From NCBI RefSeq assembly GCF_964204865.1, contig NC_135253.1, positions 22,108,001 through 22,172,000 of the forward strand: a DNA stretch of 64,000 nucleotides, read 5' to 3'. The DNA comes from Styela clava. Lineage: Eukaryota; Chordata; Ascidiacea; Stolidobranchia; Styelidae. Position numbers and translations under genes: made by a program. Of this stretch, positions 23,794 to 55,762 are shown piece by piece (the stretch's first letter is position 1; the number at the start of each line of letters is the position of its first letter). The notes beneath the pieces are model-generated. The model worked only from the letters and a program-made list of their open reading frames with translations. It searched no databases and was not told the DNA's origin.

Positions 23794-24087
23794 GCTCGCC
23801 ACTGGACGCCAATTGATAAGACTGTTCACTCTTGTTTATATAATACCCTCAAAAACTTCCGAGTTTCCAGTCGCAAGAATTTTCACAGACAACCGTCACG
23901 CTTGGCGGATTAAAAACCGTGTTCCCATAAACCCACGCAAGGTAATCAGAGGTGCGACGGCGAGCATATTCCAACGCCTAGAACGATGAGCAACAACTCC
24001 GAGGGGAAGACTCAAAATTCGAGCTATTGTATCTTCAAAATACCTATACGTGATGTTTGTGGATGAAGTAAGGGAATAATAAACCCT

Positions 24088-24126
24088 TGTTTCCGCCCGG
24101 GCTCGAACCGGGGACCTTTCGCGTGT

Positions 24127-24129
<3 letters not shown>
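24088..24129 (-). pseudogene. tRNA-Val (UAC) 3' part, cut by retrotransposon
   Basis: This 42-nt piece corresponds to tRNA positions 32-73: anticodon loop TTTACAC, variable region, T arm, 3' acceptor strand and discriminator. The poly(A) end of the retrotransposon joins it directly, so the break is exactly at the stem/loop junction 31/32. Confidence 0.9.

Positions 24130-24157
<28 letters not shown>
24130..24157 (-). other. Poly(A) tail of retrotransposon (A28 on minus)
   Basis: Twenty-eight T on plus, following CGTGTAAA of the tRNA. A plus-strand nick leaving a 3' end of TAAA would prime reverse transcription on a poly(A) tail, as in target-primed reverse transcription. Confidence 0.93.
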
Positions 24158-24586: not shown

Positions 24587-25387
24587 TTATGTAGCTGAAT
24601 ATCCATTTAGGATCTCCTTCCAGTTATTTACTATTCCGAGAAAATTAAGGTTAGTAAAAGTGTTCTCCATTGTGTTTAAAAATTGCGTAAAGTGAGATAT
24701 TGTTTTTGAAATTATGTCATCGTCCATAGGGGTCAAATATTTATTTTGGATATCCAGTCTTATTTTGGTGCCAATTAAGTTCTTTTTCCATATTACATAA
24801 CATTTGGTGACTACTATTTGGTTATGCCCCCTGTAACTATTGTAGAATATTTCCTTTAGAGTTATTTTGATGGAGTTGCTTAGTACGCTGTTAAGAATTT
24901 TTAAAAGTTTTACCGCATATTTCCTCGTTGATTTACAGTTTATAATTATATGTCCTGTATTGTCTACAGGCCCTTTGCAAAATTTGCAGCCTAATATTTT
25001 TAAGTTTCCGAGAGCATCATACCTGAGGGACATTCCCCTCAAGCGATCGCCGAATATGTACCCCTCTCTTATAATGCGATACGAGATTATTCGTTCCGCG
25101 TTAGTAAACTTATTTTTATAATCATGGTTAAATAGGTGAGCTTCTTCCCAATTCACATTCAGCAGCTGTTGTTTGTCTTTGGCTGTCCTGTTGTTCTTCA
25201 ATTTCATGTACAGGTCTTTATGTCTTGCAACCTCCCAGGTGGATTGCGAGAAATTCAATTCTTTATAGATGTCGAGGATGTATGCCCATTGCTCTGGAAT
25301 AGTATTGCTGTGGGGCATTGAGTTGGTGTATCTATCCTTGTTAATTTGCTTGACTCTGGATCCCAAAGAGTATAATGCCTCTATTTG
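24587..25387 (-). pseudogene. ORF2 C-terminal part after in-frame TGA
   Basis: About 266 codons continue in the same frame straight after the TGA at 25388-25390 and end at TAA (24587-24589). No ATG begins this part; the first codons read QIEALYS. It carries the C-terminal zinc motif of L1/Tx1-type ORF2, C-X2-C-X8-H-X4-C (CKFC, then GH, then NC), which binds nucleic acid in related elements. With the upstream part the intended product is about 1,160 residues, normal for the family. Unless the stop is read through, this part is not made. Confidence 0.88.
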
Positions 25388-28069
25388 TCAAAATTGAGTT
25401 AGGGGTTCGTTACCCACGATGTATCTCATTTTTTCCACTGCACATGCCTTTATTTTTGCATCAACATCAATCATATTGATCCCACCATCGTTCCACATTC
25501 TTTGTAGCGATTTTCTGCTAATGGCCTCTATCTTTTGCGGGTGCCAGAGGAACTTAAACAGCGCACTCTCGATTTTCTTTATATACGTTTTCGGGATTCT
25601 CTTTACTCTCGTATGGAAGATTATGACAGACATAATCATGGAGTTGATTGATATCAGTTTACCATACCAGGTGAGGTTTCGCAGCTTAACGTAATTTAGG
25701 GTTCGTATCATCTTATTTTCGATTACCTGCCACATATTGTTTAAGTCCATATTTCCAAATTGTATTCCAAGTATTATGGTGTTTTGTTTTATGTAGTTCC
25801 CATGTGGCGAATTGTTCACTAAATTATGCGATTCTTTTGTAATACAGAGAATTTCGGTCTTATCTTTATTTATTTTTTGTCCTGTTGCTAAATGGAAATT
25901 GTCTAGCTCGTGAAAGATTTCTGTAATAGATAATTGATCTCTAACTGCGAACGTGATATCATCAGCAAACTGATCGAGTTTATGCTCGTATCTCCCCAGT
26001 TGGATACCATGTATATTGGCATTTAATTGTACCGATCTTGCTAGGGGCTCTATATTGATGGCGTAGAGAAGCATACTTAACGGGCATCCTTGTCTAATTC
26101 CTTGCCCTATATCGATTTCCTGCGTGAGTCTACCGTTTACATCTACCTGACTTTTAATTCCGTAATACATGCTTTTAATTGCTTTTGAGATTCTATTTCC
26201 AAGTCCAATTTGATGTAAAATTTTAAATAAGAAGTCATGATTCACTCTATCAAAAGCTTTAAGATTGTCTATTATTATTAGTGATCCGGGGATATTTTTC
26301 ATTTTGCAGTGTCTAATTATAGCGTCTATATTATAATGAACATCTTCCATACATCTTTGCCTGAGTGCGCATTTCTGGGATGGACTTATGATTTTGTTTA
26401 GTACCGGTTCTAATCGTTTAACAAGGATTCTTGATAGGATTTTATAGTCTGCATTGAGCGTTGTGATTGGCCTCCAATTTTTTAAATTTGTTTTGTCTCC
26501 CTTCTTGTATACTAATTTAACTTTCGCTATGGTAGCAGATTTTGGTATTTGGCCGAAATATAATATGTTATTCATAAGTTGAGTAAATTGCTTTTTAATA
26601 GAGTTCCAGAAGGTCAGGTAGAATTCTTTGGATAGACCATCAAATCCTGGGGATTTATCGTTTCCCATAAATTTTATCGCCCTATATACCTCTTCTTGTG
26701 AGATATAACTTTCTAGTATGATATTATCCTCATCTGCAATTTTAGAAGAGCCCATAAAGTTTAGATAACGATTTTGGTATTGTTCTTGCGTTATATTCTC
26801 TTTGCCCCATAGGTTCTTATAGAAACTTTCTACTATTGATATGATCTCCCCGGGATTTGTTTTCACATTTTGGTCATTTGTCACCAGCTCTTCTATTGTT
26901 GTTTGCCTAGATCTGCGCCGGATTTTTTCATAAAAGGTTTTGGTGGGCCTTTCCCCTTCTTCAAGGTTTTTCATTTTTGCCATTAGTATGTCCCTTTTGT
27001 TTCGTTCATCTTGAATTATCTCGATCTGCGATTTTAGCCTTTTGATTTCGATCATGTTTTCCGCTTTCCCCTCATTGATTAGTATATCAAATCTTTTTCG
27101 AATTTGCATTAAGCTATTATTGTGGTCACGTGTCCGGAATTTCGAGTAGGCAATGGTTTGTTTTTTAACCCTCTTTTTCACATAGTCCCACCAGTCCGAC
27201 AAGTAATCAAAGTTTTCGATATCCGTGAGTGCGTCTTTATATGTATTTTGGATGATGGTGATATACGTGGGGTCCTTATATAGCGCGGTGTTATTGCGCC
27301 ACGTTCCTTTGCCCCATCGAACCTTTTTGGTTTGTTCTAGTGTAATTTGTGGGCATAGTATGTGATCCGAAACAGTGTTGGGTATATGGGTTATGTCCGA
27401 AATGATGCTATTTACATTGGCCGAGTTATATATCCGGTCTATTCTCCGTCCTTGCGATTTGAAGTGGAAGGTATAGATTTGTTTGTTTGGATATTTTGCA
27501 CGATAGGTATCGAATATATTGTTCTGTAGGACGAATTTTCGGAAGATTTTCTCAGGGGGTCGCATTTTGAAGTTGTTGGCATTTGTGACGTCACGAATGT
27601 CCAGGACGGCATTGAAATCTCCGACTATTATTAAGTAATTTGATTCGCAGTAATTACTTAGAATGTTGGCGAGATTTTGGTAGAACTCCGTTTTATGAGG
27701 GCCGTTTTTCGCCGGGGCGTAAACATTGAATATCTTGATGATCCGCTTGTCCATTTCTATTTCTATACTATCGCACCGATGTGTGATATGTGTGGTGTAA
27801 GTTGGTGGCAATATGGTATCACAAACTTTAACCATTATCAACGTGCCTTGCCTGTAAGAGGTATGGAAACCTTCATTCCTATCCAGAGTATTATAATATA
27901 TATTATATTTTTTATCATTCGCCCACTGGGTCATGAGGGCCTTGTCGACCTTATGGGCCTCTTGTATACAAAGGACATTCGGCTTATCCGTTTCTATAAA
28001 TTTGTCCAATTCATATCTATGGTGTTGTAGACCATTTACGTTCATGGAAACAATCTTCACCTTAGCCAT
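25388..28069 (-). CDS. ORF2: APE endonuclease-reverse transcriptase (premature stop)
   Basis: An 893-residue open frame from ATG, ending at a TGA. N-terminal APE-type endonuclease, about residues 1-240: NVNGL at 10-14, QEAH with Glu37, NVYAP at 115-119, GDFN at 150-153, RRIDRIY at 208-214 and SDH at 234-236; these include the metal and catalytic residues of the fold. Reverse transcriptase, about 440-760: GFDGLSKEF near 475, NWRPIT near 531, motif A with Asp601 and Asp607 in DNLKAFDRV, RQGCPLS at 659-665, and FADD at 701-704 as the catalytic motif (Phe for the commoner Tyr). The role would be to nick the target and copy the element RNA there. The frame lies 128 nt after ORF1 on the same strand. 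The TGA removes only the zinc-motif tail, so endonuclease and RT domains could still be made, but retrotransposition would probably be impaired. The stop is likely a recent point mutation. Confidence 0.95.
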   Translation of the reverse strand: MAKVKIVSMNVNGLQHHRYELDKFIETDKPNVLCIQEAHKVDKALMTQWANDKKYNIYYNTLDRNEGFHTSYRQGTLIMVKVCDTILPPTYTTHITHRCDSIEIEMDKRIIKIFNVYAPAKNGPHKTEFYQNLANILSNYCESNYLIIVGDFNAVLDIRDVTNANNFKMRPPEKIFRKFVLQNNIFDTYRAKYPNKQIYTFHFKSQGRRIDRIYNSANVNSIISDITHIPNTVSDHILCPQITLEQTKKVRWGKGTWRNNTALYKDPTYITIIQNTYKDALTDIENFDYLSDWWDYVKKRVKKQTIAYSKFRTRDHNNSLMQIRKRFDILINEGKAENMIEIKRLKSQIEIIQDERNKRDILMAKMKNLEEGERPTKTFYEKIRRRSRQTTIEELVTNDQNVKTNPGEIISIVESFYKNLWGKENITQEQYQNRYLNFMGSSKIADEDNIILESYISQEEVYRAIKFMGNDKSPGFDGLSKEFYLTFWNSIKKQFTQLMNNILYFGQIPKSATIAKVKLVYKKGDKTNLKNWRPITTLNADYKILSRILVKRLEPVLNKIISPSQKCALRQRCMEDVHYNIDAIIRHCKMKNIPGSLIIIDNLKAFDRVNHDFLFKILHQIGLGNRISKAIKSMYYGIKSQVDVNGRLTQEIDIGQGIRQGCPLSMLLYAINIEPLARSVQLNANIHGIQLGRYEHKLDQFADDITFAVRDQLSITEIFHELDNFHLATGQKINKDKTEILCITKESHNLVNNSPHGNYIKQNTIILGIQFGNMDLNNMWQVIENKMIRTLNYVKLRNLTWYGKLISINSMIMSVIIFHTRVKRIPKTYIKKIESALFKFLWHPQKIEAISRKSLQRMWNDGGINMIDVDAKIKACAVEKMRYIVGNEPLTQF

Positions 28070-28197: not shown

Positions 28198-29664
28198 TCA
28201 CTTACGCTTTCCTTTTTTATTTTTTCCAGTCAATTTTGTTTCTGTTGTAGCCGAAAAGGATGATTCCGATGACGATTCTCTATTTCTTTTATTGTTCAGG
28301 TCGGAGTTGTCCAGGTTTGCGTCCGTCAGATCTACTATGTGTTCGTTATTTCCTAGAACTGCTGGGGCAGAGAGAATTTCATCCGGAACGTCGCTAAATA
28401 AAGACGTTGTTGTGTCGTGCGCTTCATATTTATGGACCATGACTTTAACATAGGCCTTCCCTTTCGGTGGAGGGTGGAAAGGCGTATTGCCGATGGTCGA
28501 AGTTTGTTTCAGTTTTCTGCTCGGTTCCGGTTGTTTAGGTGTTTGATGGGTATTTCCAGGTTGTGCGTCTTTGGGCGATTCTCCAAGTTGCGCGTCTTTT
28601 TGGGGGGTTTGACTCGGACTTGTTGTGTTTCCGACATCTTCACATTCCGACCAGTCACTTATTTCACGTAGTTCAGAGGCCGACGGAGAAAATTCGGAGA
28701 TGGATTTATCCTTGCCACCTTGCGTTGTTTCCTGTTTGTTCTTTGTAGGTGTAATTTCTTCGGTTGATTGGCAATTAACCTGATTAGGTGTAATTACCGG
28801 TCGGTTTTGCTTGGTGTTTCCATTGTTTTGTTTTGTTTTGCTAGGTGAATTTGTAGGAATTATCGGTTGCGTCCTCCTTTGTTTGGGAAAAGTCCAGGTT
28901 TTTGTGTAATTTCCTATGGCTGGAAAGTCTCTAGCTTTTGTTTGGCAGTCCTTTTGTAAATGTCCAGCCTGTCTACAATATCTGCAGACAGGCTCGTTAT
29001 TACAGTCTATGAATGTGTGTCCAGATTGTAGACATCTTCCACATTTTGGAATGTATAGTTCTTTCGGAAGATATGTTTTACATTTGAGGCCTTTGAACAC
29101 TACATAGTCTGGTAATCGTTCCTTTTTAAAACCCTCTATTATGAAAGCTATGTAGCCGTTATATACATCAGTCCCTCTGTGCCAATTCTTAATAGCACTC
29201 TTTACTGTCCCACAACCCAGCTGGTTGATCGTATGAACAGCTTTGTCATAGGATATTTCGTGAGGTATATCCTTCACTGAAATCCTTACGGGTGCATCGC
29301 TCGGCATTTGTACAGCGATTTGTGCTTCTGCTGTTTTAATTTGTCCTTGTGTAGCTTCCAAGAAACTTTCCCTGCAGCTGTTATTTGGACCGTCCGTAGG
29401 TGCAAACGTTAAAATCCATTGGCCCTTGCGGGTCTCATATAATCCCTTAATTTCGTTTCTATATTCCTTAGTTTTTTCATTGTTTTTCAGTAATTCCATT
29501 ATTGAGGCGAAGGTGAATTCCGTGTCCGTTTTAAGGAAAACCGTTCTTGGTCTTGCTTCTCCTGGTGATGTTTCTACTGGTGGGTTCGATGCGACAGCCG
29601 CAGAATAGTCCCGGGTTGTTGCTTCTCTCCCTGTTGTTGCACTGCCTGCTTTCGCGTAATCCAT
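28198..29664 (-). CDS. ORF1: gag-like CCHC zinc-knuckle protein
   Basis: 488 residues from the first ATG after an in-frame TAA 24 nt upstream, ending KGKRK. Two CCHC knuckles: Cys208/Cys211/His216/Cys221 and Cys227/Cys230/His235/Cys240. Before them, about residues 40-200 form a mixed alpha/beta-looking region typical of knuckle-type ORF1 proteins, possibly an RRM-like fold (not verified). After them comes a long polar, low-complexity part rich in Ser, Thr, Gln, Pro and Lys with a basic C-terminus. The expected role is binding of the element's own RNA to form the ribonucleoprotein, with ORF2. I see no frameshift or stop. The ATG lies one base beyond a tRNA-Thr-like fragment, so the 5' UTR is almost wholly tRNA-derived. 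Confidence 0.92.
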   Translation of the reverse strand: MDYAKAGSATTGREATTRDYSAAVASNPPVETSPGEARPRTVFLKTDTEFTFASIMELLKNNEKTKEYRNEIKGLYETRKGQWILTFAPTDGPNNSCRESFLEATQGQIKTAEAQIAVQMPSDAPVRISVKDIPHEISYDKAVHTINQLGCGTVKSAIKNWHRGTDVYNGYIAFIIEGFKKERLPDYVVFKGLKCKTYLPKELYIPKCGRCLQSGHTFIDCNNEPVCRYCRQAGHLQKDCQTKARDFPAIGNYTKTWTFPKQRRTQPIIPTNSPSKTKQNNGNTKQNRPVITPNQVNCQSTEEITPTKNKQETTQGGKDKSISEFSPSASELREISDWSECEDVGNTTSPSQTPQKDAQLGESPKDAQPGNTHQTPKQPEPSRKLKQTSTIGNTPFHPPPKGKAYVKVMVHKYEAHDTTTSLFSDVPDEILSAPAVLGNNEHIVDLTDANLDNSDLNNKRNRESSSESSFSATTETKLTGKNKKGKRK

Positions 29665-29665
29665 G

Positions 29666-29694
29666 CTGTTTGACAGACAGGCGCTTTAACCAAC
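29666..29694 (-). pseudogene. tRNA-Thr-like 5' fragment in retrotransposon 5' end
   Basis: Twenty-nine bases match animal tRNA-Thr from D loop to anticodon stem (GTTGGTTAAAGCGCCTGTCT), then loop CTGTCAA where tRNA-Thr AGU would have CTAGTAA. It ends about position 42, just past the anticodon loop, one base before the ORF1 ATG. No T arm follows. Confidence 0.72.
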
Positions 29695-29782
29695 GCTCTA
29701 CCACAACTAACAGATAGTAAGGTTCAGGATTAGCAGTCCATCGCCTTAACCACTCGGCCACCTCGTAGTCCAACGCTCTACC
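29690..29782 (-). repeat. 13-bp D-arm-like repeat at both ends of the tRNA mosaic
   Basis: GGTAGAGCGTTGG on minus occurs at 29690-29702 and again at 29770-29782. It resembles the D arm of GGTAGAGC-type tRNAs. The two copies sit just 5' of the Thr-like and Ser-like fragments. Confidence 0.6.
29727..29766 (-). pseudogene. tRNA-Ser (GCU) 5' half in retrotransposon 5' end
   Basis: Forty bases equal, as far as I can recall it, the conserved animal tRNA-Ser GCU from position 2 to about 41: GAGGTGGCCGAGTGGTTAAG, then anticodon loop CTGCTAA and TCC. The D-arm A box is intact; the variable and T arms are absent. Like the Thr-like piece it stops just 3' of the anticodon loop. Confidence 0.85.
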
Positions 29783-29784
29783 GA

Positions 29785-29849
29785 CCCGGGCTCGAACCGG
29801 GGACCTTCAGCGCGTTAGGCGAACGTGATAACCACTACACTACGGAAAC
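29785..29849 (-). pseudogene. tRNA-Val (AAC) lacking 3' acceptor strand
   Basis: Sixty-five nt: acceptor 5' strand through the complete T arm, with A and B boxes; the last eight positions are replaced by the retrotransposon 5' end. Variants CTTCAG and GCGCGTT. Type B flank. Its intact internal promoter points into the element. Confidence 0.85.
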
Positions 29850-46064: not shown

Positions 46065-46137
46065 TGTTTCCGCCCGGGCTCGAACCGGGGACCTTTCGTG
46101 GGTTAGGCGAACGTGATAACCACTACACTACGGAAAC
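46065..46137 (-). tRNA. tRNA-Val (AAC), anticodon-arm variant
   Basis: Anticodon AAC; CGTGGGTTAGG changes position 37 and 39. Type B flank; AAC trailer. First of a 549-bp tandem pair. Confidence 0.75.
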
Positions 46138-46389
46138 TACACGGGCCTAGGGGTGGATTTCTGCGATACATAATTCCCAAATTTCTAAACCTCTCGCAAA
46201 TAACCATCCCTGCTTGGGATTCGAACCTGAAAACCCACGCAAGGTAATCAGAGGTGCGATGGCTTGCGTATTCCAACGCCTAGAACGATGAGTAACACCT
46301 CCCAGGGGAGGACTCAAAATTCGAGCTATTGTATCTTTGAAATACTTATACGTGATGTTTGTGAATGAAGAAAGGAAATAATAAACCCT

Positions 46390-46462
46390 TGTTTCCGCCC
46401 GGGCTCGAACCGGGGACCTTTCGCGTGTAAAGCGAAAGTGATAACAACTACACTACGGAAAC
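46390..46462 (-). tRNA. tRNA-Val (UAC)
   Basis: Anticodon UAC; GCGAAAGTG and AACAACTAC variants. Type A flank; no T4 trailer. Confidence 0.82.
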
Positions 46463-46613
46463 GCTCGCCACTGGACGCCAATTCATGAGACTGTTCACTC
46501 TTGTTTATATAATACCCTCAAAAACTTCCGAGTTTCCAGTCGCAAGAATTTTTACAGACAGCCGTCACGCTTGGCGGATTAAAAAGAATTATGATAAAGT
46601 CAAATGGAGGGTT

Positions 46614-46686
46614 TGTTTCCGCCCGGGCTCGAACCGGGGACCTTTCGTGGGTTAGGCGAACGTGATAACCACTACACTACGGAAAC
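46614..46686 (-). tRNA. tRNA-Val (AAC), anticodon-arm variant
   Basis: 549-bp tandem copy of 46065. Type B flank; shortened AAC trailer. Confidence 0.75.
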
Positions 46687-46938
46687 TACACGGGCCTAGG
46701 GGTGGATTTCTGCGATACATAATTCCCAAATTTCTAAACCTCTCGCAAATAACCATCCCTGCTTGGGATTCGAACCTGAAAACCCACGCAAGGTAATCAG
46801 AGGTGCGATGGCTTGCGTATTCCAACGCCTAGAACGATGAGTAACACCTCCCAGGGGAGGACTCAAAATTCGAGCTATTGTATCTTTGAAATACTTATAC
46901 GTGATGTTTGTGAATGAAGAAAGGAAATAATAAACCCT

Positions 46939-47011
46939 TGTTTCCGCCCGGGCTCGAACCGGGGACCTTTCGCGTGTAAAGCGAAAGTGATAACAACTAC
47001 ACTACGGAAAC
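46939..47011 (-). tRNA. tRNA-Val (UAC)
   Basis: 549-bp tandem copy of 46390. Type A flank; no T4 trailer. Confidence 0.82.
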
Positions 47012-47316
47012 GCTCGCCACTGGACGCCAATTCATGAGACTGTTCACTCTTGTTTATATAATACCCTCAAAAACTTCCGAGTTTCCAGTCGCAAGAATTT
47101 TCACAGACAGCCGTCACGCTTGGCGGATTAAAAACCTTGTTCCCATAAACCCACGCAAGGTAATCAGAGGTGCGATGGCGAGTGTATTCCAACGCCTAGA
47201 ACGATGAGCAACACCTCCGAGGGGAGGACTCAAAATCCGAGCTATTGTATGTTCTAAATACTTATACGTGACGGGTGTTGATACAAAAGAATTATGACAA
47301 AGTCAAATGGAGGGTT

Positions 47317-47451
47317 TGTTTCCGCCCGTGCTCGAACCGGGGACCTTTGTATCGACACCCGTCACGTATAAGTATTTAGAACATACAATAGCTCGGATTT
47401 TGAGTCCTTTCGCGTGTTAGGCGAACTTGATAACCACTACACTACGGAAAC
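47317..47451 (-). pseudogene. tRNA-Val (AAC) split by inverted spacer copy
   Basis: A 73-nt AAC gene interrupted between T arm and anticodon arm by 62 bp (about 47346-47407) that is the reverse complement of its own 3' trailer at about 47227-47288. Also CCCGTGCTC T-stem and GCGAACTT changes. No known intron position; non-functional in all likelihood. Confidence 0.88.
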
Positions 47452-47703
47452 CACACGAGTCTTAAGGTAGATTTCTGCGATACATAATTCCCAAATTTCC
47501 AAACCTCTCGCAAATAACCATCCCTGCTTGGGATTCGAACCTGCAAACCCACGCAAGGTAATCAGAGGTGCGATGGCGAGCGTATTCCAACGCCTAGAAC
47601 GATGAGTAACACCTCCGAGGGGAGGACTCAAAATTCGAGCTATTGTATCTTTGAAATACTTATACGTGATGTTTGTGAATGAAGTAAGGAAAAAATAAAC
47701 CCT

Positions 47704-47776
47704 TGTTTCCGCCCGGGCTCGAACCGGGGACCTTTCGCGTGTAAACCGAACGTGATAACCACTATACTACGGAAAC
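47704..47776 (-). tRNA. tRNA-Val (UAC), stem mismatch
   Basis: Anticodon UAC; GTAAACCGAAC breaks the 31-39 pair (absent from the copy at 57329); ACTATACTAC. Type A flank; T6 trailer. Confidence 0.8.
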
Positions 47777-48081
47777 GCTCGCCACTGGACGCCAATTCAT
47801 AAGACTGTTCACTCTTGTTTATATAATACCCTCAAAAACTTCCGAGTTTCCAGTCGCAAGAATTTTCACAGACAGCCGTCACGCTTGGCGGATTAAAAAC
47901 CTTGTTCCCATAAACCCACGCAAGGTAATCAGAGGTGCGATGGCGAGTGTATTCCAACGCTTAGAACGATGAGCAACACCTCCGAGGGGTGGTCTCAAAA
48001 TCCGAGCTATTGTATGTTCGAAATACTTATATGTGAGGGTTGTCGATACAAAAAAATTATGACAAAGTCAAATGGAGGGTT

Positions 48082-48134
48082 TGTTTCCGCCCGGGCTCGA
48101 ACCGGGGACCTTTCGCGTGTTAGGCGAACGTGAT
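48082..48134 (-). pseudogene. tRNA-Val (AAC) fragment, 5' end missing
   Basis: Keeps T arm, anticodon AAC and part of the D arm; joins ACGTGATGTTTG trailer sequence of the next gene at GTGAT. Confidence 0.82.
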
Positions 48135-48174
48135 ACGTGATGTTTGTGAATGAAGTAAGGAAAACATAAACCCT

Positions 48175-48247
48175 TGTTTCCGCCCGGGCTCGAACCGGGG
48201 ACCTTTCGCGTGTAAAGCGAACGTGATAACCACTACACTACGGGAAC
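48175..48247 (-). tRNA. tRNA-Val (UAC)
   Basis: Anticodon UAC; CGGGAAC. Type A flank; T4 downstream (AAAACATAAA on plus). Confidence 0.83.
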
Positions 48248-48551
48248 GCTCGCCACTGGACGCCAATTCATAAGACTGTTCACTCTTTTTTATATAATAC
48301 TCTCAAAAACTTCCGAGTTTCCAGTCGCAAGAATTTTCACAGACAGCCGTCACGCTTGGCGGATTGAAACCGTGTTACCATAAACCCACGCAAGGTAATC
48401 AGAGGTGCGATGGCGAGTGTATTCCAACGCCTAGAACGATGAGCAACACTTCCGAGGGAAGGACTCAAAATCCGAGCTATTGTATGTTCTAAATAATTGT
48501 ACGTGACGGTTGTCGATACAAAATAATTATGACAAAGTCAAATGGAGGGTT

Positions 48552-48624
48552 TGTTTCCGCCCGGGCTCGAACCGGGGACCTTTCGCGTGTTAGGCGAACG
48601 TGATAACCACTACACTACGGAAAC
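48552..48624 (-). tRNA. tRNA-Val (AAC)
   Basis: Anticodon AAC, consensus. Truncated type B flank without the B box; AAC trailer. Confidence 0.9.
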
Positions 48625-48718
48625 CATACGAGTCTAAAGGTGGATTTCTGCGATACATAATTCCCGAATTCTCAAACCTCTCGCAAATAACCATCCCCAC
48701 GCAAGGTAATCAGCCAAG

Positions 48719-48754
48719 GTAAAGCGAACGTGATAACCACTACACTACGGAAAC
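48719..48754 (-). pseudogene. tRNA-Val 5' half ending in anticodon loop
   Basis: Positions 1-36 of a UAC gene only. The break near the anticodon shares CAAGGTAA with the joined spacer, so microhomology or slippage may explain it. Confidence 0.82.
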
Positions 48755-49059
48755 GCTCGCCACTGGACGCCAATTCATAAGACTGTTCACTCTTGTTTAT
48801 ATAATACCCTCAAAAACTTCCGATTTTCCAGTCGCAAGAATTTTCACAGACAGCCGTCACGCTTGGCGGATTAAAAACCGTGTTCCCATAAACCCACGCA
48901 AGGTAATCAGAGGTGCGACGGCGAGTGTATTCCAACGCCTAGAACGATGAGCAACACTTCCGAGGGAAGGACTCAAAATCCGAGCTATTGTATGTTCTAA
49001 ATACTTGTACGTGACGGTTGTCGATACAAAAGAGTTATGACAAAGTCAAATGGAGGGTT

Positions 49060-49132
49060 TGTTTCCGCCCGGGCTCGAACCGGGGACCTTTCCCGTGTTA
49101 GGCGAACGTGATAACCACTACACTACGAAAAC
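49060..49132 (-). tRNA. tRNA-Val (AAC), variants
   Basis: Anticodon AAC; TTCCCGTG and CTACGAAAAC changes. Type B flank; AAC trailer. Confidence 0.78.
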
Positions 49133-49384
49133 TCCACGAGCCTAGGGGTGAATTTCTGCAATACATAATTCCCAAATTCCCAAACCTCTCGCAAATAACC
49201 ATCCCTGCTTGGGATTCGAACCTGCAAACCCACGCAAGGTAATCAGAGGTGCGATGGCGAGCATATTCCAACGCCTAGAACGATGAGCAACACCTCCGAG
49301 GGGAGGACTCAAAATTCGAGCTATTGTATCTTCGAAATACTTATACGTGATGTTTGCGAATGAAGTAAGGAAATGATAAACCCT

Positions 49385-49456
49385 TGTTTCCGCCCGGGCT
49401 CGAACCGGGAATTTTCGCGTGTAAAGCGAACGTGATAACCACTACACTACGGAAAC
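49385..49456 (-). tRNA. tRNA-Val (UAC), short variable region
   Basis: 72 nt; anticodon UAC; ACCGGGAATTTTCG lacks one base beside the T arm. Type A flank; no T4 trailer. Confidence 0.72.
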
Positions 49457-49761
49457 GCTCGCCACTGGACGCCAATTGATAAGACTGTTCACTCTTGTTT
49501 ATATAATACCCTCAAAAACTTCCGATTTTCCAGTCGCAAGAATTTTCACAGACAGCCGTCACGCTTGGCGGATTAAAAACCGTGTTCCCATAAACCCACG
49601 CAAGGTAATCAGAGGTGCGACGGCGAGTGTATTCCAACGCCTAGAACGATGAGCAACACTTCCGAGGGAAGGACTTAAAATCCGAGCTATTGTATGTTCG
49701 AAATACTTATACGTGACGGTTGTCGATACAAAAGAATTGTGACAAAGTCAAATGGAGGGTT

Positions 49762-49834
49762 TGTTTCCACCCGGGCTCGAACCGGGGACCTTTCGCGTGT
49801 TAGGCGAACGTGATAACCACTACACTACGGAAAC
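49762..49834 (-). tRNA. tRNA-Val (AAC)
   Basis: Anticodon AAC; CCACCCGGG. Type A flank, unusual for AAC genes; AAC trailer. Confidence 0.86.
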
Positions 49835-50128
49835 GCTCGCCACTGGCCGCCAATTCATAAGACTGTTCACTCTTTTTTATATAATACCCTCAAAAACTTC
49901 CGAGTTTCCAGCCGCAAGAATTTTCACAGACAGCCGTCACGCTTGGCTGATTAAAAACCGTGTTACCATAAACCCACGCAAGGTAATCAGAGGTGCGACG
50001 GCGAGTGTATTCCAACGCCTAGAACGATGAGCAACACTTCCGAGGGAAGGACTCAAAATTCGAGCTATTGTATCTTCGAAATACTTATACGTGATGTTTG
50101 CGAATGAAGTAAGGAAATGATAAACCCT

Positions 50129-50201
50129 TGTTTCCGCCCGGGCTCGAACCGGGGACCTTTCGCGTGTTAGGCGAACGTGATAACCACTACACTACGGAAA
50201 C
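50129..50201 (-). tRNA. tRNA-Val (AAC) with UAC-type trailer
   Basis: Anticodon AAC body in a unit whose trailer is the no T4 type normally beside UAC genes; probably a gene-conversion hybrid. Type A flank. Confidence 0.88.
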
Positions 50202-50506
50202 GCTCGCCACTAGACGGCAATTGATAAGACTGTTCACTCTTGTTTATATAATACCCCCAAAAACTTTCGAGTTTCCAGTCGCAAGAATTTTCACAGACAG
50301 CCGTCACGCTTGGCGGATTAAAAACCTTGTTCCCATAAACCCACGCAAGGTAATCAGAGGTGCGATGGCGAGTGTATTCCAATGCCTAGAACGATGAGCA
50401 ACACCTCCGAGGGGAGGACTCAAAATCCGAGCTATTGTATGTTCTAAATACTTGTACGTGACGGTTGTCGATACAAAAGAATTATGACAAAGTCAAATGG
50501 AGGGTT

Positions 50507-50579
50507 TGTTTCCGCCCGGGCGCGAACCGGGGACCTTTCGCGTGTTAGGCGAACGTGATAACCACTACACTACGGAAAC
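50507..50579 (-). tRNA. tRNA-Val (AAC)
   Basis: Anticodon AAC; GGGCGCGAA changes the T loop/B box. Type B flank; AAC trailer. Confidence 0.82.
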
Positions 50580-50842
50580 TACACGAGCCTAGGGATGGAT
50601 TTCTGCGATACATAATTCCCAAATTTCCAAACCTCTCGCAAATAACCATCCCTGCTTGGGATTCGAACCTGCAAACCCACGCAAGGTAATCAGAGGTGCG
50701 ATGGCGAGTGTATTCCAACGCCTAGAACGATGAGCAACACCTCCGAGAGGAGGACTCAAAATCCGAGCTATTGCATGTTCTAAATACTTGTACGTGACTG
50801 TTGTCGTTACAAAAGAATTATGACAAAGTCAAATGGAGGGTT

Positions 50843-50915
50843 TGTTTCCGCCCGGGCTCGAACCGGGGACCTTTCGCGTGTTAGGCGAACGTGATAACCA
50901 CTACACTACGGAAAC
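50843..50915 (-). tRNA. tRNA-Val (AAC)
   Basis: Anticodon AAC, consensus. Type B flank; AAC trailer. Confidence 0.93.
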
Positions 50916-51167
50916 CATTCGAGCCTAGGGATGGATTTCTGCGATACATAATTCCCAAATTTCCAAACCTCTCGCAAATAACCATCCCTGCTTGGAATTC
51001 GAACCTGCAAACCCACGCAAGGTAATCAGAGGTGCGATGGCGAGCGTATTCCAACGCCTAAAACGATGAGTAACACCTCCGAGGTGAAGACTCAAAATTC
51101 GAGCTATTGTATCTTTGAAATACTTATACGTGATGTTTGTGAATGAAGTAAGGAAATAATAAAACCT

Positions 51168-51240
51168 TGTTTCCGCCCGGGCTCGAACCGGGGACCTTTC
51201 GCGTGTAAAGCGAACGTGATAACCACTACACTACGGAAAC
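51168..51240 (-). tRNA. tRNA-Val (UAC)
   Basis: Anticodon UAC, consensus. Type A flank; T4 about 4 nt downstream. Confidence 0.92.
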
Positions 51241-51549
51241 GCTCGCCACTGGCCGCCAATTCATAAGACTGTTCACTCTTTTTTATATAATACCCTCAAA
51301 AACTTCCGAGTTTCCAGCCGCAAGAATTTTCACAGACAGCCGTCACGCTTGGCGGATTAAAAACCGTGTTACCATAAACCCACGCAAGGTAATCAGAGGT
51401 GCGATGGCGAGTGTATTCCAACGCCTAGAACGATGAGCAACACTTCCGAGGGGAGGACTGACTCAAAATCCGAGCTATTGTATGTTCTAAATACTTGTAC
51501 GTGACGGTTGTCGATACAAAAGAATTATGACAAAGTCAAATGGAGGGTT

Positions 51550-51622
51550 TGTTTCTGCCCGGGCTTGAACCGGGGACCTCTCGCGTGTTAGGCGAACGTG
51601 ATAACCACTACACTACGGAAAC
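51550..51622 (-). tRNA. tRNA-Val (AAC)
   Basis: Anticodon AAC; GTTTCTG, GGGCTTG and CCTCTCG variants. Type B flank; AAC trailer. Confidence 0.8.
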
Positions 51623-51874
51623 TACACGAGCCTAGGGGTGGATTTCTGCGATACATAATTCCCGAATTCTCAAACCTCTCGCAAATAACCATCCCTGCTT
51701 GGGATTCGAACCTGCAAACCCATGCAAGGTAATCAGAGATGCGATGGCGAGCATATTCCAACGCCTAGAACGATGAGCAACACCTCCGAGGGAAGGACTC
51801 AAAATTCGAGCTATTGTATCTTCGAAATAGTTATACGTGATGTTTGCGAATGAAGTAAGGAAATGATAAACCCT

Positions 51875-51947
51875 TGTTTCCGCCCGGGCTCGAACCGGGG
51901 ACCTTTCGCGTGTAAAGCGAACGTGATAACCACTACACTACGGAAAC
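51875..51947 (-). tRNA. tRNA-Val (UAC)
   Basis: Anticodon UAC, consensus. Type A flank; no T4 trailer. Confidence 0.92.
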
Positions 51948-52252
51948 GCTCGCCACTAGAAGGCAATTGATAAAACTGTTCACTCTTGTTTATATAATAC
52001 CCTCAAAAACTTCCGAGTTTCCAGTCGCAAGAATTTTCACAGACAGCCGTCACGCTTGGCGGATTAAAAACCTTGTTCCCATAAACCCACGCAAGGTAAT
52101 AAGAGGTGCGACGGCGAGTGTATTCCAACGCCTAGAACGATGAGCAACATTTCCGAGGGAAGGACTCAAAATCCGAGCTATTGTATGTTCGAAATACTTA
52201 TACGTGACGGTTGTCGATACAAAAGAATTATGACAAAGTCAAATGGAGGGTT

Positions 52253-52325
52253 TGTTTCCGCCCGGGCCCGAACCGGGGACCTTTCGCGTGTTAGGCGAAC
52301 GTGATAACCACTACACTACGGAAAC
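52253..52325 (-). tRNA. tRNA-Val (AAC)
   Basis: Anticodon AAC; GGGCCCGAA T-loop change. Type B flank; AAC trailer. Confidence 0.86.
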
Positions 52326-52576
52326 CATACGAGTCTAAAGGTGGATTTTTGCGATACATAATTCCCGAATTCTCAAACCTCTCGCAAATAACCATCCCTG
52401 CTTGGGATTCGAACTTGCAAACCCACGCAAGGTAATCAGAGGTGCGATGGCGAGCATAATCCAACGCCTAGAAGATGAGCACCACCTCCGAGGGGAGGAC
52501 TCAAAATTCGAGCTATTGTATCTTCGAAATACTTATACGTGATGTTTGCGAATGAAGTAAGGAAATGATAAACCCT

Positions 52577-52649
52577 TGTTTCCGCCCGGGCTCGAACCGG
52601 GGACCTTTCGCGTGTAAAGCGAACGTGATAACCACTACACTACGGAAAC
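52577..52649 (-). tRNA. tRNA-Val (UAC)
   Basis: Anticodon UAC, consensus. Type A flank; no T4 trailer. Confidence 0.92.
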
Positions 52650-52954
52650 GCTCGCCACTAGAAGGCAATTGATAAAACTGTTCACTCTTGTTTATATAAT
52701 ACCCTCAAAAACTTCCGAGTTTCCAGTCGCAAGAATTTTCACAGACAGCCGTCACGCTTATCGGATTAAAAACCTTGTTCCCATAAATCCACGCAAGGTA
52801 ATCAGAGGTGCGATGGCGAGTGTATTCCAACGCCTAGAACGATGAGCAACACCTCCGAGGGGAGGACTCAAAATTCGAGCTATTGTATGTTCTAAATACT
52901 TGTACGTGACGGTTGTCGTTACAAAAGAATTATGACAAAGTCAAATGGAGAGTT

Positions 52955-53027
52955 TGTTTCCGCCCGGGCTCGAACCGGGGACCTTTCGCGTGTTAGGCGA
53001 ACGTGATAACCACTACACTACGAAAAC
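52955..53027 (-). tRNA. tRNA-Val (AAC)
   Basis: Anticodon AAC; CTACGAAAAC acceptor change. Type B flank; AAC trailer. Confidence 0.86.
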
Positions 53028-53279
53028 TCCACGAGCCTAGGGGTGAATTTCTGCAATACATAATTCCCAAATTCCCAAACCTCTCGCAAATAACCATCCC
53101 TGCTTGGGATTCGAACCTGCAAACCCACGCTAGGTAATCAGAGGTGCGATGGCGAGCATATTCCAACGCCTAGAACGATGAACAACACCTCCGAGGGGAG
53201 GACTCAAAATTCGAGCTATTGTATCTTCGAAATACTTATACGTGATGTTTGCGAATGAAGTAAGGAAATGATAAACCCT

Positions 53280-53351
53280 TGTTTCCGCCCGGGCTCGAAC
53301 CGGGAACTTTCGCGTGTAAAGCGAACGTGATAACCACTACACTACGGAAAC
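53280..53351 (-). tRNA. tRNA-Val (UAC), short variable region
   Basis: 72 nt; anticodon UAC; ACCGGGAACTTTCG lacks one base. Type A flank; no T4 trailer. Confidence 0.74.
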
Positions 53352-53656
53352 GCTCGCCACTGGACGCCAATTGATAAGACTGTTCACTCTTGTTTATATA
53401 ATACCCTCAAAAACTTCCGATTTTCCAGTCGCAAGAATTTTCACAGACAGCCGTCACGCTTGGCGGATTAAAAACCGTGTTCCCATAAACCCACGCAAGG
53501 TAATCAGAGGTGCGACGGCGAGTGTATTCCAACGCCTAGAACGATGAGCAACACTTCCGAGGGAAGGACTCAAAATCCGAGCTATTGTATGTTCGAAATA
53601 CTTATACGTGACGGTTGTCGATACAAAAGAATTATGACAAAGTCAAATGGAGGGTT

Positions 53657-53729
53657 TGTTTCCGCCCGGGCTCGAACCGGGGACCTTTCGCGTGTTAGGC
53701 GAACGTGATAACCACTACACTACGGAAAC
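53657..53729 (-). tRNA. tRNA-Val (AAC), junction of 9,625-bp repeats
   Basis: Anticodon AAC, consensus; the two 9,625-bp copies meet inside it, since the equivalent gene at 44032 is CAC. Type A flank; AAC trailer. Confidence 0.92.
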
Positions 53730-53770
53730 GCTCGCCACTGGACGCCAATTGATAAGACTGTTCACTCTTG

Positions 53771-53780
53771 TTTATATAAT
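53771..53780 (-). promoter_or_regulatory. TATA-like element of type A flank (example)
   Basis: ATTATATAAA on minus, 42-51 nt upstream of the tRNA gene at 53657. Every complete type A flank has it in this place, as TATATAA, AATATATAAA or the weaker TTAAATAAA form. Some animal tRNA genes use such upstream elements besides the internal boxes; the role here is inferred from position and conservation. Confidence 0.5.
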
Positions 53781-54009
53781 ACCCTCAAAAACTTCCGAGT
53801 TTCCAGTCGCAAGAATTTTCACAGACAACCGTCACGCTTGGCGGATTAAAAATGTTGTTCCCATAAACCCACGCAAGGTAATCAGAGGTGCGGTGGCGAG
53901 TGTATTCCAACGCCTAGAACGATGAGTAACACCTCCGAGGGGAGGACTCAAAATTCGAGCTATTGTATCTTTGAAATACTTATACGTGATGTTTGTGAAT
54001 GAATTAAGG

Positions 54010-54015
54010 AAAAAA
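54010..54015 (-). terminator. Pol III T6 terminator (example)
   Basis: T6 on minus, 9-14 nt after the tRNA at 54024. The same run follows about a quarter of the genes, e.g. at 4230, 4597, 10976, 22748, 34165, 47704. Confidence 0.75.
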
Positions 54016-54023
54016 TAAACCCT

Positions 54024-54096
54024 TGTTTCCGCCCGGGCTCGAACCGGGGACCTTTCGCGTGTAAAGCGAACGTGATAACCACTACACTACGGAAAC
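54024..54096 (-). tRNA. tRNA-Val (UAC)
   Basis: Copy of 44399. Type A flank; T6 trailer. Confidence 0.93.
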
Positions 54097-54401
54097 GCTC
54101 ACCACTGGACGGCAATTGATAAGACTGTTCACTCTTGTTTATATAATACCCTCAAAAACTTCCGATTTTCCAGTCGCAAGAATTTTCACATACAGCCGTC
54201 ACGCTTGGCGGATTAAAAACCGTGTTCCCATAAACCCACGCAAGGTAATCAGAGGTGCGACGGCGAGTGTATTCCAACGCGTAGAACGATGAGCAACACC
54301 TCCGAGGGGAGGACTCAAAATCCGAGCTATTGTATGTTCGAAATACTTATACGTGACAATTGTCGATACAAAAGAATTATGACAAAGTCAAATGGAGGGT
54401 T

Positions 54402-54474
54402 TGTTTCGGCCCGGGCTCGAACCGGGGACCTTCAGCGTGTTAGGCGAACGTGATAACCACTACACTACGGAAAC
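54402..54474 (-). tRNA. tRNA-Val (AAC)
   Basis: Copy of 44777 with GTTTCGG and CTTCAG. Type B flank; AAC trailer. Confidence 0.85.
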
Positions 54475-54726
54475 TCCATGATCCTATGGGTGGATTTCTG
54501 CGATACATAATTCCCAAATTCCCAAACCTATCGCAAATAACCATCCCTGCTTGAGATTCGAACCTGCAAACCCACGCAAGGTGATCATAGGTGCGATGGC
54601 GAACATATTCCAACGCCTAGAAAGATGAGCAACACCTCCGAGGGGAAGACTCAAAATTCGAGCTATTGTATCTTCGAAATACTAAAACGTGATGTTTGTG
54701 AATGAAGTGAGGAAATGATAAACCCT

Positions 54727-54799
54727 TGTTTCCGCCCGGGCTCGAACTGGGGACCTTTCGCGTGTAAAGCGAACGTGATAACCACTACACTACGGAAAC
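54727..54799 (-). tRNA. tRNA-Val (UAC)
   Basis: Copy of 45102; AACTGGGG. Type A flank; no T4 trailer. Confidence 0.88.
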
Positions 54800-54935
54800 G
54801 CTCGCCACTGGACGCCAATTGATAAGACTGTTCACTCTTGTTTATATATTACCCTAAAAAACTTCCGAGTTTCCAGTCGCAAGAATTTTCACAGACAGCC
54901 GTCACGCTTGGCGGATTTAAAATCGTGTTCCCATA

Positions 54936-55114
54936 ATTAAAACGTGATACAGCGCAATTTTGGATGAAATATCAGATCTCATACGATTTATAGAAAATTT
55001 AGGAATAAATCAAAGTAATATCCTTCTGACAAAAAAATCAATCTTTCACCACTAAACATTTCAAAGAAATTGGTCTAGTATTCAACGAGAAAAGCGAATA
55101 TATCATGACGAAGA
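54936..55114. repeat. Module C, truncated
   Basis: Copy of the 45311 module in the second 9,625-bp repeat. Confidence 0.72.
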
Positions 55115-55311
55115 CAACCGTCACGCTTGGCGGATTAAAACCGTGTTCCCATAAACCCACGCAAGGTAATCAGAGGTGCGATGGCGAGTGTATTCCAACG
55201 CCTAGAACGATGAGTAACACCTCCGAGGGGAGGACTCAAAATCCGAGCTATTGTATCTTTGAAATACTTATACGTGATGTTTATGAATGAAGTAAGGAAA
55301 AAATAAACCCT

Positions 55312-55384
55312 TGTTTCCGCCCGGGCTCGAACCGGGGACCTTTCGCGTGTGAAGCGAACGTGATAACCACTACACTACGGAAAC
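55312..55384 (-). tRNA. tRNA-Val (CAC)
   Basis: Copy of 45687. Type A flank; T6 trailer. Confidence 0.92.
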
Positions 55385-55689
55385 GCTCGCAACTGGACGC
55401 CAATTGATAAGACTGTTCACTCTTGTTTATATAATACCCTCAAAAACTTCCGAGTTTCCAGTCGCAAGAATTTTCACAGACAACCGTCACGCTTGGCGGA
55501 TTAAAAATCTTGTTCCCATAAACCCACGCAAGGTAATCAGAGGTGCGATGGCGAGTGTATTTCAACGCCTAGAACGATGAGCAACACCTCCGAGGGGAGG
55601 ACTCAAAATCCGAGCTATTGTATGTTCGAAATATTTATACGTGACTTGTGTCGATACAAAAGAATTATGATAAAGTCAAATGGAGGGTT

Positions 55690-55762
55690 TGTTTCCGCCC
55701 GGGCTCGAACCGGGGACCTTTCGTGGGTTAGGCGAACGTGATAACCACTACACTACGGAAAC
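55690..55762 (-). tRNA. tRNA-Val (AAC), anticodon-arm variant
   Basis: Copy of 46065; CGTGGGTTAGG. Type B flank; AAC trailer. Confidence 0.75.

Follow-up and report, generated by a model that had tools for sequence, protein, structure and literature searches.

How a LINE comes by the sequence ahead of its first open reading frame is the question raised by one tRNA gene array of Styela clava. The window, by which we mean the whole stretch of 64,000 nucleotides that was analysed (C4:22108001-22172000), holds a minus-strand array of tRNA-Val genes broken by a minus-strand LINE (L001), and the 120 nt between the ATG of ORF1 and the 5' flank of this element (29784-29665, minus strand) are almost all host-derived. 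ARAGORN called 150 tRNA genes in the window, with the anticodons AAC, TAC, and CAC and one gene read as Ile, and gene positions in the array recur with a shift of 9625 bp (e.g., 46065 to 55690). The array layout of tRNA genes is general in the host genome; large arrays of tRNA-Thr, tRNA-Ser, and tRNA-Lys genes lie at C9:18.86-19.06 Mb, C9:21.08-21.18 Mb, and C2:15.88-16.00 Mb. All genome counts given here refer to the host assembly (376.6 Mb, 379 contigs), in which COX1 was searched for and not found.

The element belongs to the L1 group of LINEs, and it inserts into small-RNA genes or next to them, here at tRNA loci. ORF1 (28198..29664, minus strand, ATG at 29664) encodes 488 aa with a CCHC zinc-knuckle match below the Pfam cut-off. 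ORF2 up to its stop (25388..28069, minus strand, 893 aa) encodes an APE-type endonuclease and a reverse transcriptase (Pfam matches Exo_endo_phos, 1.7e-10, and RVT_1, 2e-29), and its best solved match is human LINE-1 ORF2p (aa 4-888, E 6.4e-65). An open frame past this stop (24587..25366, minus strand) represents the C-terminal part and gives a weak zf-RVT match; it is followed by a 3' UTR and an A28 tail (24130..24157, minus strand), which runs into tRNA-Val(TAC) at nt 32. ORF2 of the window copy ends after aa 893, while that of L002-L005 is open to 1162 codons, and both frames are open in these four of the six full-length copies. Insertion is target-primed, as seen from A tails, target-site duplications (11 of the 12 copies examined for them have one, the window copy being the exception), and 5' truncation in some copies (L006, L011-L014). 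The element may be Tx1-like. A search of a viral contig collection for it gave no match. In relatives, ORF1 opens in a similar way, with MDY, which suggests that the ATG is where the sequence proper to the element starts.

From the outside in, the sequence ahead of this ATG consists of five host pieces, namely a second tRNA-Lys piece (Lys2), tRNA-Ser(GCU), a spacer, a first tRNA-Lys piece (Lys1), and a tRNA-Thr-like piece, all on the minus strand (tRNA positions are linear, position 1 being the start of the gene). The outermost and youngest, Lys2 (29767..29784), covers nt 15/16-33, is common to L002 and L003, and is identical to the host at 18/18 nt, or 19 with an ambiguous junction G included; there are 172 exact genome matches to the host Lys pattern. 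The tRNA-Ser(GCU) 5' part (29727..29766; nt 2-41) agrees with the host gene at 40/40 nt and ends at a junction identical to that of insertion L005. The exact 41-mer of the 5' part of this gene occurs 20 times in the genome, always in one C9 array, and one of these occurrences is the gene broken by L005. Three additional nucleotides (29724..29726), TGA in L001 and TAA in L002, L003, and L005, separate the Ser part from the spacer piece (29701..29723), which is matched at 23/23 nt at C16:2151263, within a tRNA-Lys(TTT) array; it is antisense there to a tRNA-Lys(TTT) gene that lies about 90 nt away. The spacer pattern has 58 matches in the genome (5 exact, 5 with one mismatch, 48 with two); four of the five exact matches lie in element copies, and all five one-mismatch matches are on C16. 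Since the two-mismatch forms stand at 48 places on many contigs, the captured spacer is part of a dispersed repeat. Lys1 (29690..29702; nt 18-30) shares GG with the spacer, is identical to the host at 13/13 nt, and has the same junction as insertion L004. The innermost and oldest piece is the Thr-like one (29665..29689), which ends right before the ORF1 ATG, shares TTGG at 29693-29690 with Lys1, and agrees with host tRNA-Thr(AGT) at 21/24 nt, the three mismatches being the anticodon triplet; the host Thr pattern has 147 genome matches at no more than two mismatches. What remains as non-host sequence is the three junction nucleotides and the last base ahead of the ATG.

The longest exact matches between the mosaic and the Lys, Ser, Thr, and spacer sequences are 18, 40, 20, and 24 nt, respectively, as compared to maxima of 8, 8, 9, and 7 nt for 200 random 120-nt pieces of the element and 10, 10, 10, and 9 nt for 200 shuffles of the mosaic. 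The initial annotation, made from the window alone, had recognised the Thr-like and Ser(GCU) pieces directly before ORF1, and their coordinates proved exact; it overlooked the two Lys pieces and the spacer. Its statement that both pieces stop at position 41-42 is right for Ser (41) and roughly so for Thr, while the two Lys pieces end earlier, at 30 and 33. It had also considered that the pieces might fail to match tRNA genes of the host, and they do match host tRNA loci.

Six places in the genome match the inner (Thr-like) piece with no more than two mismatches, those of L001-L005 and L007, and all six copies were compared. L004 lies in a tRNA-Lys(CTT) gene, with the Lys gene up to nt 30 as its 5' flank and the duplication (A)GCGTTGG, and L005 lies in a tRNA-Ser(GCU) gene, with nt 1-41 as its flank and the duplication TAATCC; joining the flanks gives an intact tRNA-Lys gene in the first case and an intact tRNA-Ser gene in the second. 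The Lys and Ser junctions of these two insertions recur within other copies elsewhere. L002 and L003, which were counted as one insertion because their 5' and 3' flanks are identical over the lengths seen, are in the spacer of a tRNA-Glu array with the duplication TAAAGAATA, and the whole stack, including the outer Lys piece, is inside this duplication. In these copies, the junctions of L004 and L005 are thus carried at a new site within TAAAGAATA, as is characteristic of 5' transduction. L007, whose 5' flank is the 5' part of a tRNA-Glu gene (named from intact neighbours in its array), carries the three inner pieces only (spacer, Lys, and Thr), and its 3' end is rearranged and without an A tail. 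Two of the junctions, Lys1 and Ser, can thus be observed as actual insertions; for the spacer, Lys2, and Thr pieces, matching host loci were identified. The proposal that the pieces are 5' flanks of earlier insertions is borne out by L004 and L005, with their duplications at the same junctions, and the comparison of sibling 5' ends that had been suggested as a check revealed mosaics that differ between copies and are nested, in line with serial capture and not with a fixed 5' UTR.

Insertion is not confined to a fixed position in a single gene, as Lys, Ser, Val, and Glu genes and a Glu-array spacer were all hit. In tRNA genes, the first nick was placed at linear nt 23/24 for Lys(CTT), 24/25 for Ile, 31/32 for Val, 35/36 for Ser, and 32/33 for the C2-array Lys gene that holds L011-L014 (duplication TTTAAATCC(AA)); the duplications of tRNA-gene insertions measure 6-11 nt. 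The initial annotation had reasoned from a nick at 31/32 and a duplication of about 10 nt; this nick is found in one case, that of Val, and does not hold as a rule. In total, we viewed the 5' ends of 41 of 51 scored matches (from 1819 first-look candidates), i.e., the window copy, L006, L011-L014, and 35 other copies; in several of the 41, such as L009, L021, L056, L057, and L059, the 5' junction could not be placed.

The differences among the six copies allow the captures to be ordered. Over 5502 aligned nt, 8 characters split {L001, L002, L003, L005} from {L004, L007} and 15 unite {L002, L003, L005}, with zero conflicting informative patterns. The grouping by coding differences follows the nesting of the 5' pieces except for L005, which is without the outer Lys piece and yet differs from L002 and L003 by 2-3 nt. 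We take a Ser-carrying copy to have landed in a Ser gene and to have had its 5' end joined via the Ser piece, whereby Lys2 would have been lost; conversion by an adjacent Ser gene is also possible. A tree that includes truncated copies places L011-L014 with the window copy. We also rooted the copy tree with ten relatives (~60% identity), where L004-private sites went 10 to 6, the 8 sites uniting L001, L002, L003, and L005 went 2 to 5, and L001-private sites went 7 to 8. This rooting was not used, as its polarity is mixed, and the direction of the capture order is therefore taken from the nesting.

The present landing site of the window copy is less regular than those of its siblings. Its 5' flank is nt 1-64 of a tRNA-Val(AAC) gene (29785..29848, minus strand, from the sequence and the ARAGORN gene at 29777-29848), and its 3' flank is a tRNA-Val(TAC) gene from nt 32 on (24087..24129, minus strand, end approximate). 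The two flanks derive from different Val genes, with 23 nt in common and a different anticodon, and a clean target-site duplication was looked for in them and not found. As the usual AAC-TAC spacing is 378 bp, about 345 bp of the array would be absent between the flanks. A deletion at insertion, a longer duplication altered by conversion, or a later exchange would all account for this arrangement.

The same pattern of capture is shown by relatives that are about 58% identical in ORF2 protein. L023 lies in a tRNA-Ile gene with the duplication (A)GCGTCGTGC, and the joined gene is intact. Its junction occurs three times in the genome, in L023, L024, and L082; L024 carries Ile nt 23-33 and L082 carries nt 15-33, with no tRNA seen at either site, and a duplication was sought for L024 and none found. 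L020 and L068, both inside duplications at unrelated sites, start within ~4 nt of U2 +1, a position that is based on an Rfam match of L044 at model position 1 (37.8 bits against a gathering score of 46, E 2.5e-4) and on what we take to be the 5' end of U2. They carry U2 to about nt 33-35, followed by a leader-exon-like piece, and the fusion has two exact matches in the genome. Inside duplications there are also Ile-like and Lys-like pieces in L066 and leader-exon-like pieces in L062, L063, and L065. From its exon, GTAAG donor, and stems, we assume the leader-like exon to be a spliced leader, presumably similar to that of Ciona. The 5' UTRs of the leader-like relatives seem to hold much of such a leader RNA. 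Such relatives are L008-L010, L015-L018, and L060 (C4:23.30-23.48 Mb and C6:19.28-19.62 Mb), which adjoin leader-RNA-like genes at an ATTAAG-GTAAG junction.

Capture, its nesting, and the recurrence of true insertion junctions are observed, and they strongly support a serial capture of 5' parts from one target after another. As an explanation of the whole, it is highly probable that the sequence before ORF1 in this LINE has been borrowed from its landing sites. From the carried pieces, we infer co-transcription of the R2 type, with an RNA that would include the upstream part of the target. Transcription of an inserted copy would begin within the target gene or close to it and give an RNA that opens with the target 5' part; target-primed reverse transcription would begin at the nick in a new target and copy through this captured part; and the 5' end would then be joined by microhomology (e.g., GTTGG, for Thr and Lys) or by annealing to a gene of the same type. 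Joining by microhomology fits the GTTGG that Thr and Lys have in common where L004 is joined, and the GG common to the spacer and Lys. If the new site lay in a different gene, the old piece would be kept as 5' UTR and the new 5' part would become the next layer. The ancestors of the window copy would accordingly have passed from tRNA-Thr to tRNA-Lys, a Lys-array spacer, tRNA-Ser(GCU), and tRNA-Lys again, and the copy now resides in the tRNA-Val array. Possibly, a carried 5' part also acts as a homology arm that helps the element back into genes of the type from which the part came.

What sets the 5' end of the captured RNA is less clear than the capture itself. Judged by the sequences, the capture may be driven by the target's own transcription, begun within that gene or close to it. 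The alternative that survives best accepts serial capture and holds that an upstream start or random drop-off of the reverse transcriptase sets the 5' end, the promoter of the target being irrelevant; we consider this possible but lean against it. It is favoured by the captured spacer and by the starts of five tRNA pieces, of which just that of Ser (nt 2) lies close to base 1 of its gene (the others are nt 14-15 for Lys2, 18 for Lys1, and 15 and 23 for Ile). However, none of the measured tRNA and U2 pieces extends upstream of the first base of its gene, and both U2 pieces start within about 4 nt of +1. In addition, L001 and L002/L003 are separate insertions whose starts are at most 1 nt apart, although one intermediate might explain this. 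The starts, mostly away from the first base, and the spacer piece speak likewise against a simple tRNA-promoter model, and with 19 runs of at least four T in the sense strand of the element, it is unlikely that Pol III makes the whole RNA. It is worth adding that a start in the D-loop, at nt 14-15 of the carried tRNA, appears in separate copies (L001 and L002 for the outer Lys, L082 for Ile), as if the RNA had a defined end or reverse transcription stopped there. The broader reading, which we hold to be about evenly balanced, is that LINEs without a promoter or 5' UTR of their own land just downstream of a small-RNA gene start and use its transcription; the 5' part would serve as leader, and the leader as a log of landing sites, here five deep, with relatives doing likewise at tRNA-Ile, U2, and leader-like RNA genes.

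Two further explanations dispense with serial capture. In template jumping or RNA ligation, of which U6-L1 chimeras are a known case, the reverse transcriptase would leave the element RNA and continue on cellular tRNA halves, U2, or leader RNAs. The pieces do resemble 5' tRNA halves, in that they are sense 5' parts ending near the anticodon, and they begin near U2 +1 and Ser nt 2. This process is nevertheless very unlikely to be their source: the junctions recur as true insertions with duplications in L004, L005, and L023, the ends at 30, 33, 33, and 41 define no single cleavage site, one piece is spacer DNA antisense to its tRNA gene, and the identical Ile junction goes with two different starts in L024 and L082. 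The initial annotation had named template jumping as its alternative, and it leaves the spacer DNA and the piece ends at insertion junctions unexplained. Recombination or gene conversion within the tRNA arrays after insertion, without capture during retrotransposition, draws on the highly repetitive arrays, the unlike Val flanks of the window copy, and a possible conversion in L005, but is scarcely credible when the stack in L002/L003 has moved to another chromosome inside a target-site duplication and U2 and tRNA pieces lie inside duplications at unrelated sites in L020, L068, and L066. Both were set aside in view of the recurring insertion junctions and the pieces inside duplications, and we retain serial capture from successive landing sites.

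Two questions of long standing concern the expression of LINEs without an evident promoter and the replacement of LINE 5' UTRs in the course of time. In this young family, 5' UTR replacement can be followed layer by layer, with insertions at matching junctions persisting in the genome, and the succession of earlier landing sites is legible in the DNA alone. The family also shows in a concrete way how a LINE can come to be fused with tRNA pieces.

Small-RNA genes are targets of other non-LTR elements as well. Keno targets U2, Mutsu 5S, and Dewa the tRNA-Leu spacer (PMC3706591, PMC4640811). Like the Styela LINE, these are non-LTR elements with multicopy small-RNA genes as targets, and the endonuclease of Keno is APE-like; they differ in having one target each, and a carried stack of target pieces is not mentioned in the available portions of these papers. 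NeSL/LIN families likewise target tRNA genes (tRNA-Pro, tRNA-Arg, or tRNA-Glu), but they belong to the NeSL-related lineage and not to the L1 group, with one tRNA per family (PMC4640811). We recognised no nested capture from different target RNA genes in searches of open-licence papers, which is weak evidence of absence.

The closest parallels are R2 and human L1. R2 is transcribed with its target 28S, the upstream 28S sequence kept on the RNA has been suggested to pair with the target, and there is a proposal that target duplications repeatedly extend the 5' end (PMC3774820). The R2 RNA end is set by an HDV-like ribozyme, and with one target its successive captures would look alike, whereas the differing targets of the Styela LINE make the layers distinguishable (PMC3774820). 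For human L1, 17 chimeras with gene RNAs are described, 15 of the 17 at transcript beginnings, and 5' UTR replacement is suggested by the authors (PMC13174262). The likeness to these 5' transductions is that the start of a host transcript is joined to a nearly full-length LINE 5' end and retrotransposed. The 17 human events are scattered, mostly single, often at splice donors, and their source copies were not found (PMC13174262); in the Styela LINE, the captures form a nested series, and the genome has insertions at the corresponding junctions. As far as these sources go, the capture of upstream sequence is already known from R2 and human L1, and nested capture from different RNA genes seems to be the new part.
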